Assembly: GCA_947453965.1 (NCBI GenBank)
Contig: CANGIQ010000003.1
Location: forward strand, 62,001 to 126,000
Origin: Comamonadaceae bacterium
GTDB taxonomy: Bacteria > Pseudomonadota > Gammaproteobacteria > Burkholderiales > Burkholderiaceae_C
Length of the DNA stretch: 64,000 bases
Reading direction: 5' to 3'
Position 1 is the stretch's first letter; each line of letters starts with the position of its first letter. Made by a program: the position numbers and the translations under genes. This document shows, one piece after another, positions 13,215 through 21,256 of this stretch. The notes beneath the pieces are model-generated. The model had not been told where the DNA came from and made no database searches. It was given only the letters and a program-made list of their open reading frames with translations.

Positions 13215-13715
13215 TCAGCCCTGGCGAATTTTTTTCACAAGGGCGGTGGTGGAGTAACCATCCACGAACGGAATGGCTTGGGCACGCCCACCATAGGCCA
13301 TCACAACCTGGGTCTCTGCTAGCTGACTCATGTCGTAGTCGCCACCCTTGACCAACACGTTTGGGCGTAGTTCGGTGATGAGTTCCAGCGGTGTGTCTTC
13401 ATCAAACCACGTCACCAAACTCACCGACTCCAATGCAGCCATCAGCGCCGCGCGATCGGCTTCGTTGTTGAGCGGGCGGTCCGGGCCTTTGCCCAAACGG
13501 CGCGCCGAAGCGTCGCTGTTGAGTGCCACCACCAAGCTGCCGCCCAGCATGCGCGCCTGTGCCAGATAACTGGCATGGCCGCGGTGCAACACATCGAACA
13601 CGCCGTTGGTGAACACCACCGGACCTTGCGCGCGCAAGGCGTTCACACGCGCTACCGCGTCATGACGCGACACCAATTTGGCTAAAAAAGAGGGGGCGGG
13701 CAGCGTGGTGTTCAT
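13215..13715 (-). CDS. rfaE2: D-glycero-beta-D-manno-heptose 1-phosphate adenylyltransferase
   Basis: 166 residues, the stand-alone second domain of HldE. The cytidylyltransferase-like fold is marked by VVFTNGVFDVLHRGHASYL, carrying the nucleotide-binding HxGH motif, and by a C-terminal DGYSTTALVKKIRQG, where the STT is the usual ISSSKI-type equivalent. It activates heptose 1-phosphate to ADP-heptose for the LPS inner core. The kinase half is not nearby and is presumably encoded elsewhere, as is usual in Burkholderiales where the domains are split. It converges on glnE with 27 nt between the stops. Confidence 0.93.
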   Translation of the reverse strand: MNTTLPAPSFLAKLVSRHDAVARVNALRAQGPVVFTNGVFDVLHRGHASYLAQARMLGGSLVVALNSDASARRLGKGPDRPLNNEADRAALMAALESVSLVTWFDEDTPLELITELRPNVLVKGGDYDMSQLAETQVVMAYGGRAQAIPFVDGYSTTALVKKIRQG

Positions 13716-13752: not shown

Positions 13753-14703
13753 TCAAGACTTGCTGGTTTGCTGCTTGCGCCAGCGCTTGACCTCGTTGCT
13801 GATGCCCACCAGATCGCGCAACACCACCGCATAGGTTTGCTCGCGCCGTTGCAACGCGGCACATTGCCCGCCGGCCCACAGCTCCACCGTGACAGGCAAC
13901 AACTGACGCAATTCGCCCAAGCCGTCCACAACGTGGTTGGCGTTCATGCTCATGCTGAAACTCAAGGCCACCACATCAATGTGGTGCGCCACTGCGGCTT
14001 GGGCAATATCACGCAACGGCGTTTGCGTGCCTAAGGCGATGCAACGGCAGCCGTCCAGGGCCAACATGCTCTCGGCCATCAACAAGCCCAAGCCGTGCGA
14101 CTCTTGTGGGAATGTCGTGAGCAACACGACGGGCGCGCTATCTGCCGTGTGTTCGTTGAGTACATTGATCGCATGACGCAACAAGCCGGTGACGCACTCG
14201 GTGTAGGCATGCTCTTCAAACACTTCCAACTCGCCACGCATCCACGCGTCACCCACGGCCGTGGTCAAAGGCGCCACCAAATCAGTCACAAAGTACTTGA
14301 GCCCTTCGCGCGCCAGGACTTGGTTCAGTTGACGGCGCAGGCCTTCATTGTCATGAGCGGTCAACAAGGCGATGTATTGGCGTAAATCCACCTGCGTCGT
14401 GCTGGCACTTACAGACAAAGGCTGGGGGGACGCGACTTGGGCTTGGCTCAGCTGCTGGAGTTGCTCCACCGATTGCGCCACGATGCGGCCTGGCCGGTGG
14501 CCCTGGTCCATCAATCGCTTGATGATGCGCAATTTTTCAACCTGGGCCATCGGGTAGACCCGTTCGCCATGGGCATCACGACCTGGCGTTGGAAAACCAT
14601 AACGCCGCTCCCACACACGCAGTGTGTCTTTGCCAATGCCCGTATCGCGCTCAACGGCGGCGATGGATAAAACAACGTTGTTGAAGGGTTCGTGGATGTT
14701 CAT
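13753..14703 (-). CDS. MerR-family regulator with B12-binding domain (CarH/LitR-type photoreceptor)
   Basis: 316 residues in three parts. Residues 10-80 are a MerR winged helix with IAAVERDTGIGKDTLRVWER and RVYPMAQVEKLRII. Residues about 110-185 form the B12-binding four-helix bundle with the light-sensing signature W-x9-E-H, exactly spaced (Trp154, Glu164, His165). Residues about 190-300 are the Rossmann B12 domain with E-x-H-x-x-G (Glu201, His203, Gly206) in place of DxHxxG; that His is the lower axial cobalt ligand in the family. CarH/LitR proteins repress target promoters in the dark with adenosylcobalamin and release DNA on illumination. It is divergent from a seven-gene lipid/oxidative-stress run and very probably regulates it. 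Confidence 0.9.
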   Translation of the reverse strand: MNIHEPFNNVVLSIAAVERDTGIGKDTLRVWERRYGFPTPGRDAHGERVYPMAQVEKLRIIKRLMDQGHRPGRIVAQSVEQLQQLSQAQVASPQPLSVSASTTQVDLRQYIALLTAHDNEGLRRQLNQVLAREGLKYFVTDLVAPLTTAVGDAWMRGELEVFEEHAYTECVTGLLRHAINVLNEHTADSAPVVLLTTFPQESHGLGLLMAESMLALDGCRCIALGTQTPLRDIAQAAVAHHIDVVALSFSMSMNANHVVDGLGELRQLLPVTVELWAGGQCAALQRREQTYAVVLRDLVGISNEVKRWRKQQTSKS

Positions 14704-14718
14704 GGTGTGGCGCTATTC

Positions 14719-14740
14719 CAAATCAAAACCAAATCAAAAA
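14719..14740. repeat. 11-bp tandem direct repeat in the photoreceptor/gpx divergent region
   Basis: Two adjacent copies, CAAATCAAAAC and CAAATCAAAAA, differ only at the last base. They lie 16-37 bp upstream of the MerR-B12 start in an AT-rich stretch. MerR-B12 repressors of this class can bind direct or inverted repeats, so this may be part of the operator. The repeats are seen directly; function is inferred. Confidence 0.4.
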
Positions 14741-14753
14741 CCAAGGGATTCTC

Positions 14754-14766
14754 TTGTCCTAGACAA
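14754..14766. promoter_or_regulatory. Perfect 5-3-5 inverted repeat, candidate MerR-B12 operator
   Basis: TTGTC-CTA-GACAA is a perfect inverted repeat placed between the divergent photoreceptor and glutathione peroxidase genes. TTGTCC could also serve as a -35 element for the rightward promoter, with a weak AT-rich -10 near 14776-14781. Position and symmetry fit a MerR-family site overlapping a promoter. No binding evidence is available from sequence alone. Confidence 0.45.
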
Positions 14767-14796
14767 TATCCCAAGAATAAGCCATCATTGGTCATT

Positions 14797-15405
14797 ATGA
14801 AAGATAAATTTATGCGCCCTCTTTTGCACGCTTTTGTATGCGCCTTGGTTGGACTCAGCCCCCATCTGTCGTGGGCTGCCACAGACAGCGCGGCTGCGGT
14901 CGCCCCTGCGGCATGCCCTCGCGTGCTGCAACACACGGTGCTGCGCTTGCAAGACGAAAAACCACAGGCCTTGTGTCAGTACGCCGGACAGGTGGTTGTC
15001 GTGGTCAACACCGCCAGTTATTGCGGGTTCACGTCACAGTACAAAGGACTGGAAGCCTTGTCGGCCAAATACAAAGACCGCGGTTTGGTGGTGCTGGGTT
15101 TTCCGTCCAACGACTTTTCACAAGAGCCTGATAGCAACGCCAAGATTGCCGATTTTTGTGAAAACACCTTTGGCGTCAAGTTCCCCATGTTCGCCAAAAC
15201 CACGGTGCGCGGCCCCGACGCCTTGCCCCTCTACAAACAGTTGGCCGACATCACCGGCACCACGCCAAAGTGGAACTTTTACAAGTACATCATCAGCCGC
15301 GATGGCCAACACATCAAGAGCTTCAGCAGCATGACCGGGCCGCAAGACAAAAGCTTTGTGCAAGAAGTTGAAAAGCAATTGGCGCTCAAAGGGGCTGGTC
15401 AATGA
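14797..15405 (+). CDS. Exported glutathione peroxidase family protein
   Basis: 202 residues from ATG 14797; an ATG at 14812 (MRPLLHAFVCALVG) is the alternative. A signal peptide ends near SWAATDSAAA, so the mature enzyme is periplasmic. The thiol peroxidase core has the catalytic motif VVNTASYCGFTSQY with the peroxidatic Cys (not selenocysteine), the GFPSNDF glutamine-region segment (with Ser replacing the usual Cys before ND), and WNFYKYII. It reduces hydrogen or lipid peroxides with thioredoxin or glutathione. It is the first gene of the run divergent from the MerR-B12 photoreceptor and overlaps the next gene as ATGA. This suits protection of membrane lipids during light stress. Confidence 0.88.
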   Translation: MKDKFMRPLLHAFVCALVGLSPHLSWAATDSAAAVAPAACPRVLQHTVLRLQDEKPQALCQYAGQVVVVVNTASYCGFTSQYKGLEALSAKYKDRGLVVLGFPSNDFSQEPDSNAKIADFCENTFGVKFPMFAKTTVRGPDALPLYKQLADITGTTPKWNFYKYIISRDGQHIKSFSSMTGPQDKSFVQEVEKQLALKGAGQ

Positions 15406-16685
15406 CACGACGCATTGCCATTGTGGGTTCCGGTATTTCGGGCTTATCCGCTGCCCATCACTTGCACGGCCATGCCGAGATCACGCTGTTTGAAGCGGGT
15501 GATTATTTTGGCGGTCACACCCACACGGTGGATGTCACCTTGCCCACTGCCACAGGCTTGCAAACCCATGGCGTGGACACCGGCTTTTTGGTCTACAACG
15601 AGCGCACTTACCCAGGCTTGATCGGGCTGTTCGATGAACTGCAAATCGCCACCGCCAAATCGGACATGTCGTTTTCGGTGCAAGTGCCGGGCGCGCCTGG
15701 GCAGCGTGCCTTGGAATGGAATGGCGCTAACTTGAACACGGTGTTTGCACAACGCAGCAATGTGCTCAAGCCCCGCTTCTTGCGCATGCTGCGCGATGTG
15801 GTGCGCTTCAACACCTTGGCCACCGCCTTGGCCGAACGCAACCAAGACCATGAACTGGCGCAACCCTTGCGCGCGTTTTTGCAAACCCATGCCTTTGGCG
15901 ACAGCTTTCGTGACTGGTACTTGCTGCCCATGTTGGGCTGTATTTGGAGTTGCCCGACGGATCAGATGCTGGAATTTCCCGTGGCCACCATGATTCGGTT
16001 TTGTCACAACCACGGTCTGATTCAAGTCAACAACCGTCCGCAATGGCACACGGTGGCAGGCGGCGCGCGCCACTATGTGGAAAAAATTGTGGCCCGCATC
16101 CCCGACAAACGTCTGAACACCCCGGTGCTGCGCATTGAGCGCGACGCCCAAGGCACCACCGTACACACGCACTCGGGTAGCGAGCGCTTTGACGCTGTGA
16201 TCTTGGCCACCCACGCTGACCAGTCCTTGCAAATGCTGGCCACGCCCACACCGCAAGAACAGGCCACGCTGGGCGCCATCCGCTACCACCCCAACCGCGC
16301 GGTGCTGCACACCGACACCTCGGTCATGCCGCAGAAAAAACTCGCCTGGGCGGCATGGAACTACGAACGCGCGGCGCAGCACAACACCGAATCCGCGCGC
16401 GTGTGTTTGCACTACTGGCTGAATTTGTTGCAGCCTTTACCGTTCACGCAAGACGTGTTGGTGTCGCTCAACCCGGTGCGCGACATTGACCCCGCCCATG
16501 TGCTGGGCGCCTATGACTACGCACACCCCGTGTTTGACTTGGCCGCCATTCAAGCGCAAGCACACATGCCGCAATTGCAAGGCCAGCAACGCACCTGGTT
16601 CGCCGGCGCATGGATGGGCTATGGCTTTCATGAAGACGGTTTCAAAGCTGGGCGTGCTGCCGCACAGAGTTGGTTGGCAGCTTAA
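15402..16685 (+). CDS. FAD-dependent amine oxidase-like protein of the CFA/DUF1365 cluster
   Basis: 427 residues. The N-terminal FAD dinucleotide-binding fold is RRIAIVGSGISGLSAAHHL (GxGxxG at 9-14), followed by the acidic EAGDYFGGHTHTV strand end. Central conserved blocks include GCIWSCP and GGARHYVEKI, and the C-terminal FAD-contact segment is WFAGAWMGYGFHEDGFKAG. Such proteins are annotated as NAD/FAD-binding amine oxidases and sit beside DUF1365 and CFA-synthase-like genes. Related alphaproteobacterial clusters have been tied to modified (methylated or furan) fatty acids, so a lipid-modifying oxidase is likely. Its ATG overlaps the peroxidase stop by 4 nt. Exact reaction unknown. Confidence 0.88.
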   Translation: MTRRIAIVGSGISGLSAAHHLHGHAEITLFEAGDYFGGHTHTVDVTLPTATGLQTHGVDTGFLVYNERTYPGLIGLFDELQIATAKSDMSFSVQVPGAPGQRALEWNGANLNTVFAQRSNVLKPRFLRMLRDVVRFNTLATALAERNQDHELAQPLRAFLQTHAFGDSFRDWYLLPMLGCIWSCPTDQMLEFPVATMIRFCHNHGLIQVNNRPQWHTVAGGARHYVEKIVARIPDKRLNTPVLRIERDAQGTTVHTHSGSERFDAVILATHADQSLQMLATPTPQEQATLGAIRYHPNRAVLHTDTSVMPQKKLAWAAWNYERAAQHNTESARVCLHYWLNLLQPLPFTQDVLVSLNPVRDIDPAHVLGAYDYAHPVFDLAAIQAQAHMPQLQGQQRTWFAGAWMGYGFHEDGFKAGRAAAQSWLAA

Positions 16686-16703
16686 ACACACACTGAGCCC
16701 AAC

Positions 16704-17543
16704 ATGTCCACACCCCAACCCGCCGTGAACCCAGGTTCGCCATCTGCACTCGAAGGGCAGAGCGCGCAGGTAAACGCCACGGGTTCGCCTGCTGTGGGTT
16801 GGATCGGTTTTGGCCAAGTGCGTCACACACGCTTGCGGCCCAAGCACCACGCATTTGCCTATGCCACTTATTTTTTGATGCTGCCCATGCGCAGCATGGC
16901 ACAGCACGGCAGCCACAACTTGCCCGTCAACCGCTGGGGCGCCATCAGCTTTCACGATGCGGACCATGGCGATGGGCGCAGCGCAACGCAAGGCGGCGCG
17001 CTCGCCTGGCTGGATGCGTTGCTGCACAGCGAAGGCGTCGCCGACGCGACAGGCGAAGCTTGGTTGCACTGCTATCCACGCGTGCTGGGCTACACCTTCA
17101 AGCCCGTGAGCTTTTGGTATTGCCATGCAGCAGACAACACGCTGCGCGCCATCGTGGTGGAGGTGAACAACACCTTTGGCGAACGCCATTGCTATTTGCT
17201 GGACCAACCACGCTATGGCACAGAACAACGCGCCCGCAAAGTGTTTCATGTGTCGCCCTTTTGCGAGGTACAAGGCGACTACCGCTTTCGCTTCATGCGG
17301 ACCGCCGACCGCACGGTCGCCCGCGTCGACCACGACGATGCCCTCGGACCGTTGATTGAAACCAGCGTGAGCGGCCAACTCGAACCCATCACACCCGCAG
17401 CCCTGCGCCGCGCGCTGTGGGGCTACCCCCTGATGACGCTGATGGTGATGGCACGCATCCACTGGCAGGCCTTGAAGCTGTGGCTCAAGCGCGTGCCATT
17501 TTTCAGCAAGCCCACACCGCCCTCCGATTTTTTGACCCGTTGA
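16704..17543 (+). CDS. DUF1365 family protein
   Basis: 279 residues. It shows the DUF1365 layout: an early GQVRHTRLRPKHHAFAYATY, then a NRWGAISFHDADHGDG block, LGYTFKPVSFWYCHAADNTL, and VEVNNTFGERHCYLL. The family is uncharacterised biochemically but almost always co-occurs with FAD amine oxidase and cyclopropane-fatty-acid-synthase-like genes, and is presumed to act in the same lipid modification. It lies 18 nt after the oxidase and 19 nt before the methyltransferase, same strand. A membrane-association role is possible: residues 235-260 are amphipathic with LMTLMVMARIHWQALKLWLK. Confidence 0.88.
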   Translation: MSTPQPAVNPGSPSALEGQSAQVNATGSPAVGWIGFGQVRHTRLRPKHHAFAYATYFLMLPMRSMAQHGSHNLPVNRWGAISFHDADHGDGRSATQGGALAWLDALLHSEGVADATGEAWLHCYPRVLGYTFKPVSFWYCHAADNTLRAIVVEVNNTFGERHCYLLDQPRYGTEQRARKVFHVSPFCEVQGDYRFRFMRTADRTVARVDHDDALGPLIETSVSGQLEPITPAALRRALWGYPLMTLMVMARIHWQALKLWLKRVPFFSKPTPPSDFLTR

Positions 17544-17562
17544 TGTTGAGAAAAGTACCACC

Positions 17563-18798
17563 ATGAACACCTGCACCTCCTCGACCTGCGTCACCTCGTC
17601 CACCTCCGCCATGCCCGCTGCAGCGCGGCGTGTGGTGGGCTTGCTGCAACGACTGCAACACGGCACCTTGCATGTGCAATGGCCCGACGGCCGTGTGGAG
17701 CAATTTGGCACGCCACCTAGCTCCGGCACAGGTTTGAACGCCACCTTGCATTTACACAGCTGGGCGCCACTGACCCAAGCCCTGAAGTCAGGTGACATTG
17801 GGTTTGCTGAAAGCTACATTGCCGGTGAATGGACCACCAACAACTTGGCCGATTTGTTGCAACTCTTGGTAGCCAACCGCCGCGACATGGAAGAGGTGAT
17901 TTACGGCCATTGGCTCGGTCGCTTGTTCTACCGCGTGCGCCACTTGTTGCATCGCAACACGCGCAGCAACAGCAAGAAAAACATCCATGCCCACTACGAC
18001 TTGGGCAATGCGTTTTATGAACTGTGGTTGGACCCGACGATGAACTACTCATCGGCTTGGTTTGACAACGACCGCACCCAACCCATGGCCGATGCACAAA
18101 CCGCCAAAGTGCGCCGCGCACTGCGCATGGTGGACGCCAAAGCGGGCGACCGCATTCTTGAAATCGGTTGCGGTTGGGGTGCTTTAGCCGAGCTGGGGGG
18201 CACCGAGTTTGGCGCCCAGATGAGTGGTGTCACCCTGAGCCATGAGCAACTCGCCTTTGCCAACCAACGCATGCAAAAGTTGGGTTTGAGCGCCAGCAGC
18301 AACCTGCGCTTGCAAGACTACCGCGACATTGATGACGGCCCCTATGACGCGATTTGCTCCATCGAAATGTTAGAAGCTGTCGGCCAAGAATATTGGGCCA
18401 CCTACTTTGAGAGCGTGGCACGCTTGCTCAAGTCTGGCGGCAAAGCATGCATTCAAACCATCGTGATTGACGATGCGCTGTTTGAACGCTATGTGAAAAG
18501 CACCGACTTCATCCAACAATACATCTTCCCCGGCGGCTGCCTGCCTTGCCCGCGTGAGTTCCGCGCACAAGCCGCACGTGTGGGCCTGAAGGTGGTGGAC
18601 GAACTGGCCTTTGGTTTGGACTATGCCGAAACCTTGCGACGCTGGCGCCACCAGTTCATGGCCGACAAAGCGCAGGTGTTACAGCTGGGCTTTGACGAGC
18701 GCTTTGTGCGCATTTGGGAGTTCTACTTGGCCTACTGCGAAGCCGCCTTTGAACAACACAACATTGACGTTGTGCAATACACCTTGGTGAAACCATGA
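17563..18798 (+). CDS. Cyclopropane-fatty-acid synthase-like SAM methyltransferase
   Basis: 411 residues. An N-terminal lipid-binding domain (about 20-130, with GDIGFAESYIAGEW) precedes the class I methyltransferase fold. Motif I is ILEIGCGWGALAE (198-210). The family active-site blocks YDLGNAFYELWLDPTMNYSS (145-164), CSIEMLEAVGQEYW and YIFPGGCLPC are intact. Mycolic-acid cyclopropane synthase/CFA enzymes transfer a methylene from SAM to acyl-chain double bonds in membrane phospholipids. In this context the product could be a cyclopropane or a methyl-branched precursor. It overlaps the following lipoprotein gene by 4 nt (ATGA). Confidence 0.92.
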   Translation: MNTCTSSTCVTSSTSAMPAAARRVVGLLQRLQHGTLHVQWPDGRVEQFGTPPSSGTGLNATLHLHSWAPLTQALKSGDIGFAESYIAGEWTTNNLADLLQLLVANRRDMEEVIYGHWLGRLFYRVRHLLHRNTRSNSKKNIHAHYDLGNAFYELWLDPTMNYSSAWFDNDRTQPMADAQTAKVRRALRMVDAKAGDRILEIGCGWGALAELGGTEFGAQMSGVTLSHEQLAFANQRMQKLGLSASSNLRLQDYRDIDDGPYDAICSIEMLEAVGQEYWATYFESVARLLKSGGKACIQTIVIDDALFERYVKSTDFIQQYIFPGGCLPCPREFRAQAARVGLKVVDELAFGLDYAETLRRWRHQFMADKAQVLQLGFDERFVRIWEFYLAYCEAAFEQHNIDVVQYTLVKP

Positions 18799-19349
18799 TG
18801 AATCGACGCAAACTCTTGGCACACAGCGCCACTGGCATCACCGCCGTCAGTGCGCTGGGGTTAGTCGGCTGTGCAGGCCCTACGGTGGACGACTACGCGC
18901 AAGAAAAACCGGCGCTGGATTTGCGCAGCTACTTCAACGGCACGGTTGATGCCTGGGGCGTGTTCACCGATCGCCAAGGCAAAGTGGTGAAACGTTTCAC
19001 GGTCGAGATGCTGTGTACCTGGCAAGGTGAACAAGGCGTGCTGGATGAAAGCTTTGCCTACTCCGACGGCACGTCTGAGAAACGCATCTGGCGTTTGACG
19101 CACTTGGGTGAAGGTCGCTACCAAGGCACGGCGGGCGACGTGGTGGGTACCGCGAGCGGCCAAACCCGCGGCAACACCTTCCGCTGGGGCTACACCTTGG
19201 CCTTGCCAGTGAATGGCACGGTGTTGAACGTCAGTATGGATGACTGGATGTATTTGATGAACGAACGCGTCATGCTCAACAAAGCACGCATGAGCAAATG
19301 GGGCATCCATTTGGGTGATGTGACCTTGTCGTTCACACGTCGGGCTTGA
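18795..19349 (+). CDS. DUF3833 lipoprotein
   Basis: 184 residues starting MMNRRKLLAHSATGITAVSA, with a twin-arginine-like NRRK and a lipobox LVGC, so probably a lipoprotein with Cys at about residue 26. The body matches DUF3833: YFNGTVDAWGVFTDRQGKVV, then FAYSDGTSEKRIWRLTHLGE and WMYLMNERVMLNKARMSKWG. The fold is calycin-like, which suggests lipid binding, but the function is unproven. It is a standard member of the CFA/DUF1365/FAD-oxidase neighbourhood. It ends 1 nt before the SDR gene. Confidence 0.85.
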   Translation: MMNRRKLLAHSATGITAVSALGLVGCAGPTVDDYAQEKPALDLRSYFNGTVDAWGVFTDRQGKVVKRFTVEMLCTWQGEQGVLDESFAYSDGTSEKRIWRLTHLGEGRYQGTAGDVVGTASGQTRGNTFRWGYTLALPVNGTVLNVSMDDWMYLMNERVMLNKARMSKWGIHLGDVTLSFTRRA

Positions 19350-19350
19350 G

Positions 19351-20133
19351 ATGGCCTGGCTGCAACCCATGAACCCACCCATCACCGACTGGCAAGGTCG
19401 CAGTGTGTGGCTGGTGGGCGCATCCAGTGGCATTGGTTTGGCCACCGCACACGCGCTGCATGCAGCGGGCGCACGGGTGGTGGTGTCAGCGCGCAAAGCC
19501 GAATTGCTGCAACACTTTGTTGACACCCACGCCGGTGCCCAAGCCGTGGTGTTGGACGTGGGCGATGCCCAAGCCATCGCCCGCGCTGCAGCGTATATAG
19601 AAACACAACAAGGCTTGGATGTGGTGGTCTACTGCGCTGGCTATTACAAGCCGGTACGCGCCACCGCCTATGCCTTGGACGAAATGTTGCGCCACCAAGA
19701 GGTGAACTATGTCGGCGCTCTGCGCGTGCTCGATGCGGTGTTGCCGCCTTTATTGGCCCAAGGTCATGGCCACATCAGCTTGGTAGCCAGCGTCGCCGGC
19801 TACCGTGGCCTGCCACAGAGCCTGGCCTATGGCCCGACCAAAGCCGCTTTGATTCATTTGGCCGAAGCCTTGTATTTGGATGTGAGCGCCAAGGGCTTGG
19901 GCGTGAGTGTGGTCAACCCTGGGTTTGTGGAAACCCCGTTGACGGCGGACAACGACTTTCACATGCCGGCACTGATTCAGCCCGCCGAAGCGGCGCGTCA
20001 GATGCTGCGCGCTTGGGCACAAGGCGCGTTTGAAATTCATTACCCCAAGCGGTTCACGCGCTGGCTCAAGCTGATGCGTTTGTTGCCTTATCGACTTTAC
20101 TTTGCGCTCGTGCGTCGCACGACGGGGTTGTGA
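19351..20133 (+). CDS. Short-chain dehydrogenase/reductase (SDR)
   Basis: 260 residues, classical SDR. The cofactor motif is LVGASSGIGLATA (TGxxxGxG type), the catalytic Ser is in LVASVAGYRG, and Tyr/Lys are in YGPTKAALIHLAEA (YxxxK). A C-terminal segment VVNPGFVETPLT follows. It probably oxidises or reduces a lipid or acyl intermediate with NAD(P)H in the same pathway. The start is ATG 19351, 1 nt after the DUF3833 stop; ATG 19369 (MNPPITDWQ) is an alternative that removes six residues. Cofactor and substrate are not determinable here. Confidence 0.88.
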   Translation: MAWLQPMNPPITDWQGRSVWLVGASSGIGLATAHALHAAGARVVVSARKAELLQHFVDTHAGAQAVVLDVGDAQAIARAAAYIETQQGLDVVVYCAGYYKPVRATAYALDEMLRHQEVNYVGALRVLDAVLPPLLAQGHGHISLVASVAGYRGLPQSLAYGPTKAALIHLAEALYLDVSAKGLGVSVVNPGFVETPLTADNDFHMPALIQPAEAARQMLRAWAQGAFEIHYPKRFTRWLKLMRLLPYRLYFALVRRTTGL

Positions 20134-20179
20134 CGCATTGCACAATGGTGCAACACCACACGCCCACAGCGCCACCACC

Positions 20180-20641
20180 ATGCACCTGATACCAGCCACC
20201 ACGCCCGAAGCTGCATTGCAAAACGTGGTGCACTTTTTTGAGTATCTGCAACCCGCCGATGTGGCGCGCATCGCCGAGATTTACACAGCCGACGCCCAGT
20301 TCAAAGACCCATTCAACGAGGTGCAAGGCGTGGCCGCGATCACGCGTATCTTTGCCCACATGTTTGATGCGCTAGAGTCGCCGCGCTTTGTCATCACCCA
20401 ACAGGTGCAACAAGGCACGCAATGCTTTGTCACCTGGGATTTCTTGTTTGCCATGCGTCGCCTGGATGCGGGCAAAACGCAAACCATTCGCGGCGCCAGC
20501 CATTTGGTGCTGCGCCAAGAGTCAGGCATGTGGCGGGTAGCTGTGCACCGCGATTATTGGGATGCCGCCGAAGAGCTGTACGAAAAGTTGCCCTTGGTGG
20601 GTGCTCTGATGCGGTGGCTCAAACGGCGCGCGAACAGTTGA
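20180..20641 (+). CDS. SnoaL-like / NTF2-fold protein
   Basis: 153 residues starting at ATG 20180, chosen because the upstream extension lies in the tail of the SDR frame and intergenic sequence. The NTF2-like pattern is clear: helix PEAALQNVVHFFEYLQPADV, IYTADAQFKDPFNEVQGVAA, then beta strands ending WRVAVHRDYWDAAEELY. Members of this subgroup often travel with the SDR/DUF3833/CFA cluster. They may act as isomerases, cyclases or ketosteroid-isomerase-like binders; no specific role is known. It is the last gene of the rightward run, and its stop abuts the stop of the convergent GST within a TGATCA hexamer. Confidence 0.85.
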   Translation: MHLIPATTPEAALQNVVHFFEYLQPADVARIAEIYTADAQFKDPFNEVQGVAAITRIFAHMFDALESPRFVITQQVQQGTQCFVTWDFLFAMRRLDAGKTQTIRGASHLVLRQESGMWRVAVHRDYWDAAEELYEKLPLVGALMRWLKRRANS

Positions 20642-21256
20642 TCAAACCGGCGCGGTGTCCTTGAAGCTTTGACGTTGCGCCAAGCGCTCGTACAAGCCCC
20701 CCAGATTGGGGTGCTGATCGCGCCAGTCAATCGCTGGAAAACGAAAGTCCAAATAGCCCAAGGCGCTGCCCACCGCAATGTCGCTCAAGCTCAGGTGAAT
20801 ACCCACGCAGTGGCTGCGCTCGCCCAAGGCGCGGCTCATGGCGACCAGACTGTCGTTGATTTTTTTCATCTGGCGATCAATCCACGCTTGGCTGCGTTCG
20901 CCGTCTTGACGACCTGGCCAGGTGGCTTCTAAGCGCGCCAGAATGGCTGCATCCAACAAACCGTCGGCCAAGGCTTCCCAGGTTTTGACTTCGGCGCGTT
21001 CGCGGCCGCTGCCTGGGATGAGCTTGCCCACAGGCGAGAGCGTGTCCACATATTCCACGATCACGCGCGAATCAAACAAGGCTTCGCCGCCTTCCATGAT
21101 GAGGCAAGGGACCTTGCCCAAGGGGTTGGAGGCCGAAATGGTGGTGTCGGCGGCCCAGACGTCTTCAGGCACAAACTGGTAGTCCAGCTTTTTTTCGGCC
21201 ATGACGATGCGCACTTTGCGCACATAGGGGCTGGTGGTGGCACCAATAAGTTTCAT
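20642..21256 (-). CDS. Glutathione S-transferase family protein
   Basis: 204 residues from ATG 21256 (the longer frame has no support). The N-terminal thioredoxin fold has MKLIGATTSPYVRKVRIVMA with Ser9 as likely catalytic residue, a cis-Pro in GKVPCLI, and the glutathione-binding DSRVIVEYVD. The C-terminal helical domain has LSLSDIAVGSALGYLDFRF. It conjugates or reduces electrophiles with glutathione; substrate unknown. It converges on the SnoaL-like gene and is divergent from purB (86 bp between starts). Confidence 0.9.
   Translation of the reverse strand: MKLIGATTSPYVRKVRIVMAEKKLDYQFVPEDVWAADTTISASNPLGKVPCLIMEGGEALFDSRVIVEYVDTLSPVGKLIPGSGRERAEVKTWEALADGLLDAAILARLEATWPGRQDGERSQAWIDRQMKKINDSLVAMSRALGERSHCVGIHLSLSDIAVGSALGYLDFRFPAIDWRDQHPNLGGLYERLAQRQSFKDTAPV

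Follow-up and report, generated by a model that had tools for sequence, protein, structure and literature searches.

What would a putative vitamin B12 photoreceptor control where neither photolyase nor carotenoid genes stand beside it? The question is raised by positions 13753–20641 of a 64,000-nucleotide (nt) stretch of the Comamonadaceae bacterium assembly GCA_947453965.1 (contig CANGIQ010000003.1, positions 62,001–126,000; hereafter, the window), where the gene of a CarH-class regulator (13753–14703, minus strand) is separated by 93 nt from seven co-directional plus-strand genes (14797–20641). These encode an exported glutathione peroxidase (14797–15405), a flavin adenine dinucleotide (FAD) oxidase (15402–16685), a DUF1365 protein (16704–17543), an S-adenosylmethionine (SAM) methyltransferase of the CMAS/CFA (cyclopropane fatty acid) family (17563–18798), a DUF3833 lipoprotein (18795–19349), a short-chain dehydrogenase/reductase (SDR; adh_short, 19351–20133), and a SnoaL_2 (NTF2-like) protein (20180–20641). 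The divergent seven-gene operon had been proposed in a preliminary description of this DNA; Pfam assignments agree with the gene order given there, and successive junctions of −4, +18, +19, −4, +1, and +46 nt agree with the tight packing. We consider it probable that the locus is a B12 photoreceptor controlling a light-inducible operon for furan-lipid synthesis and peroxidase-mediated protection of the envelope. The earlier observation is confirmed, and its interpretation is supported in part: a regulator-linked DNA dyad and conserved residues back its core idea, a CarH-class sensor facing an operon for modified lipids and an exported peroxidase.

The regulator shares with CarH (class I LitR) of Thermus, Myxococcus, and Bacillus the MerR DNA-binding domain, the two-part B12 domain, the W-x9-EH cap, the axial His motif, and a divergent target operon, the targets being carotenoid genes there and a putative furan-lipid/peroxidase operon here. 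MerR_1, B12-binding_2, and B12-binding all exceed the Pfam cut-offs, and Thermus CarH (5c8d) matches the protein with a phmmer E-value of 5e-28, residues 10–303 of 316 being covered. The match to the NCBIfam CarH equivalog, TransRegCarH (E-value 1e-38, 133 bits), is far short of the 400-bit cut-off, and hence we term the regulator CarH-class and not a TransRegCarH equivalog. The two signatures of this class lie exactly where they had been reported, W-x9-EH at residues 154–165 and E-x-H-x-x-G at residues 201–206. As a PF01923 cobalamin adenosyltransferase is encoded in the same genome, adenosylcobalamin (AdoCbl) could be made from cobalamin.

Regulator matches were found in 111 of 200 family genomes (a set that contains the window's genome), with 82 of them at an E-value of 4.4e-44 or better and the other 29 mostly matching in the MerR domain only. 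Of the 81 further places with a strong regulator match, 76 were taken with their surroundings (all but G043, G048, G074, G089, and G169). An FAD-enzyme gene, identified by tblastn with the window proteins, is divergent from the regulator in 63 of these 76 loci, and thus the regulator–operon arrangement is not due to chance. The light-responsive signature of B12 photoreceptors has been described as GxxW, EH, GxxH, and GxxxP (PMC11796333). Three of these four elements are intact in the window, and conservation is high across the 77 family regulators, counting that of the window: 74 retain the Gly and 74 the Trp of GxxW, EH has its Glu in 75 and its His in 74, 75 have the axial His, and the Gly and the Pro of GxxxP are each present in 76.

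When the DNA preceding each of the 77 regulators (at most 450 nt) was searched de novo, a single dyad stood out, TTGTC-N3-GACAA (extended form, TTTGTC-N3-GACAAA). It is exact in 43 of the 77 loci versus one of 1540 dinucleotide shuffles, and matches at nine or more of ten positions in 66 loci, including the window, versus 19 of 1540 shuffles, although the comparison with shuffles overstates the odds because the loci are related. Once the loci are aligned on the dyad, its flanks are nearly flat. The window copy, TTGTCCTAGACAA (14754–14766, TTGTC-CTA-GACAA), sits in the divergent intergenic region, and an exact copy is seen in six of 5000 shuffles of the 157-nt stretch that holds it. Neighboring dyad sites are spaced by 62–63 bp in 19 of 32 intervals. 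An exact dyad is present in the same-genus genome G184, and the plasmid of Azoarcus sp. KH32C carries one exact and one 9/10 dyad between the regulator and the FAD gene of its furan fatty acid (ufa) operon. The sole sigma70-like promoter in 14600–14900 (TAGACA-N17-CATCAT, 14760–14788, plus strand; one found, 0.4 expected in shuffles) has its −35 element inside the dyad, which fits repression. We regard TTTGTC-N3-GACAAA as the predicted operator, to which, judging from the linkage, the regulator would bind.

The dyad occurs at the promoter in none of 20 regulator-less ufa operons, even though the DNA examined there was ten times as long; that scan gave two 9/10 matches, one within the FAD gene and one 1.2 kb upstream of it. 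DUF1365 is present in 154 of the 200 family genomes, and when named genomes were searched with a DUF1365 alignment, 588 stretches were confirmed, the best 80 of which, leaning to near relatives, include Limnohabitans, Polaromonas, Rhodoferax, Curvibacter, Acidovorax, and others. More than 4 kb of upstream sequence is available for 69 of these best 80 stretches, 22 with the regulator and 47 without it, and the dyad is found in 16 of the former versus six of the latter. Cultured bacteria with the regulator include Tepidicella xavieri DSM 19605 (L220) and Brachymonas denitrificans DSM 15123 (L216). The named and unnamed locus sets overlap and are not independent; e.g., the contig of L216 is apparently that of L077.

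What the operon makes is suggested by its three central genes. According to PMC7380195, ufaM, ufaD, and ufaO are sufficient for synthesis of a methylated furan fatty acid, the remaining three genes of the Rhodobacter operon being dispensable; UfaO contains DUF1365, and UfaD has an NAD-FAD domain. The furan acid is lost upon exposure to singlet oxygen and gives protection against it (PMC7380195), and Halomonas ufaM expressed in E. coli yields a furan-acid intermediate (PMC12089945). This set is complete in the window, with the FAD enzyme (Amino_oxidase family; a UfaD-like fatty acyl desaturase, judging from family, context, and PMC7380195), the DUF1365 protein (UfaO family, putative furan-forming oxygenase), and the CFA-family methylase (UfaM-like) encoded consecutively.

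The methyltransferase shares with cyclopropane fatty acid synthase the CMAS family, the SAM domain, and the Glu and Tyr of the bicarbonate site. In the E. coli enzyme, bicarbonate, the proton acceptor, is bound by Glu239, His266, and Tyr317 (PMC11387697). These residues align to Glu271, Gln298, and Tyr354 of the window protein (structure-chain numbering in this alignment is one higher); the position of His266 is thus occupied by Gln, and two further replacements nearby are invariant or nearly so in operon-linked proteins. Gln is found at the His266 position in all 83 operon-linked methyltransferases, the window's included, and the residue following Glu, His in E. coli, is Ala in all 83. At the position of E. 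coli Cys139, which we take to line the pocket, Ser is found in 77, Ala in three, and Cys in three. Loss of the base ligand would fit UfaM-like methyl transfer without ring closure, a reading drawn from the CFA synthase alignment. The preliminary description had left the product as a methylated, cyclopropane, or furan-type lipid; since the bicarbonate-binding His is replaced by Gln, methylation and the furan are favored and the cyclopropane is not, being disfavored by the Gln, Ala, and Ser replacements. We therefore consider it unlikely that the operon produces cyclopropane or plain methyl-branched fatty acids, with the DUF1365 and FAD proteins otherwise employed, despite the CMAS-family membership of the enzyme, its closest solved relatives being cyclopropane synthases, and the E. 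coli-type Cys retained in three of 83 proteins: the methyltransferase gene adjoins DUF1365 and FAD genes whose Rhodobacter counterparts form furan rings (PMC7380195).

The first gene of the operon encodes a thiol-type peroxidase with the GSHPx domain, the catalytic Cys, the peroxidatic and resolving Cys motifs, and an export-type N-terminus; a hydrophobic segment, called by our own rule and not by SignalP, is present in all 77 relatives whose core is readable (three of 80 lack the core). In the examples inspected, these exported peroxidases share extra Cys in a CP...RLQDEKPQ-LCQY-like stretch ahead of the catalytic core. The peroxidase-led layout had been remarked upon earlier, yet it is not peculiar: the peroxidase gene stands between the regulator and the FAD-enzyme gene in 35 of the 63 divergent loci, and, among the best 80 of 588 named stretches, heads the ufa operon in eight of 22 with the regulator and 26 of 47 without it. 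By these counts, ufa operons headed by the peroxidase are a common module in these bacteria, and the B12 regulator is one controller but not the sole one. On a tree of 72 rows, drawn from 97 candidates (76 and 20 loci plus the window; ten far Burkholderia-like operons, L136–L143, L145, and L146, and fifteen loci in which the three genes are not all full-length were left out), the fewest changes are eight for regulator presence and 17 for peroxidase presence, and the peroxidase–regulator association is not significant (median p = 0.375). A photolyase-family gene lies within reach in one of 35 peroxidase-led versus 11 of 28 other ufa loci; an inverse peroxidase–photolyase link was not retained, the independent pairs on the tree being too few. 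In L113 (10533–11159), the regulator, an exact dyad, and an exported glutathione peroxidase occur without ufa genes nearby.

Similar outputs are known under another sensor. The RpoE-ChrR regulon of Rhodobacter sphaeroides includes the ufaD/ufaO operon (RSP1087-1091) and UfaM, and the RpoE2-ChrR regulon of Shewanella includes a CFA-type enzyme (cfa) together with the periplasmic glutathione peroxidase PgpD (PMC4336711), the sensor in both being a pair of an extracytoplasmic function (ECF) sigma factor and an anti-sigma factor. Given this established wiring (PMC7074977, PMC4336711), singlet oxygen might drive the operon mainly via an ECF sigma/ChrR pair, leaving the CarH-class protein a minor or auto-regulatory role; indeed, an ECF sigma gene lies approximately 1.6–2.6 kb upstream, beyond hldE, in two of 13 regulator-less relatives that were read (L147, L150). 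We find this scenario rather improbable, as no ChrR over the cut-off was found in the window's own genome (best partial match, 36.8 bits versus 124.5), no TGATC-N14-19-CGTAWY promoter was found in the window (a weak test, 0.12 being expected by chance), and the sigma gene of L147 adjoins a carboxymuconolactone-decarboxylase gene and not a ChrR gene. Replacement of the regulator by ChrR at the same address was also rejected, no ChrR pair being seen among the upstream frames, read by eye, of 13 of the 20 regulator-less operons; five of these upstream frames were profile-scanned (ECF sigma in L147 and L150, desaturase-type in L144 and L148). In the latter two (L144:4790–5656, L148:4992–5861), a peroxidase-led, regulator-less ufa operon has as its divergent neighbor a ferritin-like gene of the fatty-acid-desaturase type, with weak matches to FA_desaturase_2 and AurF.

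The proposed B12 control of the furan-lipid/peroxidase operon would then proceed as follows. In the dark, the AdoCbl-loaded regulator would occupy the dyad at 14754–14766 and block both its own promoter and that of the operon; blue or green light would cleave the Co–C bond, releasing the regulator and allowing expression. The UfaM-like enzyme would methylate 18:1 phospholipid chains, the UfaD-like FAD enzyme would desaturate the methylated chains, and the UfaO-like DUF1365 protein would add oxygen, giving a methylated furan fatty acid able to quench membrane singlet oxygen, while the exported peroxidase would reduce envelope hydroperoxides. The DUF3833 lipoprotein, a predicted calycin-like beta barrel, may bind the modified lipids or another hydrophobic ligand.

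Several observations weigh against this mechanism. On the sensor side, the third signature element, GxxH, reads QxxH in the window (the first position is Gly in 31 and Gln in 25 of the 77 regulators), so that the signature Gly of CarH is Gln here and the sensor is less certain, and in the remainder of the B12 motif, x41-SxV/T-x22-27-GG, the spacing and GG agree while SxS stands for SxV/T. These two deviations would suit a regulator that senses cobalamin status or redox instead of light, or that is B12-independent like Myxococcus CarA; we nevertheless hold this to be very unlikely, because CarA lacks the W-x9-EH cap (PMC8156234), whereas 73 of the 77 regulators, that of the window among them, have both an intact cap and E-x-H-x-x-G. 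On the operator side, the window holds a single copy and not a pair, 11 of the 77 loci lack any dyad of at least 9/10, the same-genus G080 has only a 7/10 version (core TGTCCTAGAC), and the promoter is weak (9/12 matches). Genome-wide, exact dyads are near background in ten genomes compared with a reversed-pattern control (e.g., four versus two places in G080, two versus three in G137, and none versus one in G060), and hence the dyad is informative only beside the regulator. The dyad, often paired 62–63 bp apart, is also unlike the operators of relatives: Thermus CarH binds 11-bp direct repeats (PMC8156234), and the nAnnTnnACAn repeat has no exact match on either strand of the 93-nt intergenic region, whereas the class II LitR site is TGTACA-N12-TGTACA (PMC9758184). 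Further, the UfaD, UfaO, and UfaM assignments are putative ones made by family and context. Finally, ufa operons are common without the regulator, and light control is thus not essential to the module.

Other sequence patterns were considered as well. The Pseudomonas-type TGTACA pair is not clearly enriched: two mismatches at gap 12 are found in eight of the 77 loci, compared with three loci at gap 10 and none at gap 11 or 13, and whatever the gap, the majority of loci show three to four mismatches. A wider dyad regulon is not claimed, since in nine other genomes the exact dyad is about as frequent as the reversed-pattern control. In the window's own genome the exact dyad occurs in two places, the operator and C4:125730; the window has three 9/10 matches besides the operator, and the three 20-kb stretches around photolyase-family genes have two (L039:16777, L040:13253), kilobases from those genes. 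Between the regulator and the dyad, at 14719–14741, lie two near-identical direct repeats of 11–12 bp (AAATCAAAACC, AAATCAAAAACC). The locus is flanked by minus-strand genes matching the families of hldE-type adenylyltransferases (13215–13715) and glutathione S-transferases (20642–21256).

The earlier statement that photolyase and carotenoid genes are missing holds at the locus, while genome-wide (47 contigs, 96% complete) three photolyase/cryptochrome-family genes are found elsewhere. A carotenoid synthase was not found in this genome: just two genes with PF00494 (phytoene/squalene synthase) were detected, hpnC and hpnD, which adjoin the squalene gene hpnE (L238, contig C1). In L038 (8868–11305, contig C4 of the same genome), a second MerR protein lacking a B12 domain is encoded by a gene that overlaps a cryptochrome/photolyase-family gene tail to tail; its identity to Burkholderia, Caballeronia, and Methylomagnum MerR proteins is 31–35% over 81–83%, and its homologs adjoin folE in two Caballeronia records. 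We take it to be a class III LitR-like candidate.

A close published arrangement is that of the class II LitR proteins (PplR/PmlR) of Pseudomonas putida and P. mendocina, where a MerR/LitR protein likewise stands beside ufaM, FAD oxidoreductase, and SDR genes, and light induces the ufaM cluster via class II LitR together with a LOV protein (PMC9758184; PMC8508746). Class II LitR is, however, thought unable to bind B12, with PmlR2 acting together with the LOV protein, and its cluster includes a photolyase, while the available text of PMC9758184 does not mention a glutathione peroxidase. Blue light is no longer perceived by a Vibrio cholerae mutant that lacks both ChrR and its MerR protein (PMC5241685). 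Publications already describe light control of ufa clusters through class II LitR/LOV, as well as ChrR-sigmaE control of ufa genes or of genes for periplasmic peroxidases. No report tying a B12-dependent CarH/LitR to furan fatty acids was found in the literature searched, which covered few subscription journals; the pairing of a class I B12 sensor with a furan-lipid output, and the operator code, seem to be new, although the parts have precedents.

CarH-class regulators also occur in other surroundings. In L079, L097, L115, and L157, which have no ufa genes nearby, the divergent partner of the regulator is a chemoreceptor (MCP) or CheB-CheR-PAS gene, with an exact dyad beside the regulator in the first three, and on a Comamonas endophytica plasmid a CarH-class regulator is flanked by two MCP genes. 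For the Burkholderiales relatives and the Azoarcus plasmid, we see an even chance that a B12 photoreceptor directly switches furan-lipid synthesis and periplasmic peroxide defense via the TTTGTC-N3-GACAAA code, often in two copies about six helical turns apart; with the same sensor and dyad facing chemotaxis genes in some ufa-less relatives, the switch would have been rewired to membrane protection and perhaps to taxis.

The analysis offers a concrete predicted operator and product for testing, and the invariant Gln of the methyltransferases is a handle on methyl transfer versus cyclopropane closure within one enzyme family. In the literature searched, the fields of B12 photoreceptors and of furan fatty acids, which are singlet-oxygen scavengers, have met only via the class II LitR of Pseudomonas. 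If the proposed control is true, many Burkholderiales would remodel their membranes with furan lipids upon light, via vitamin B12.

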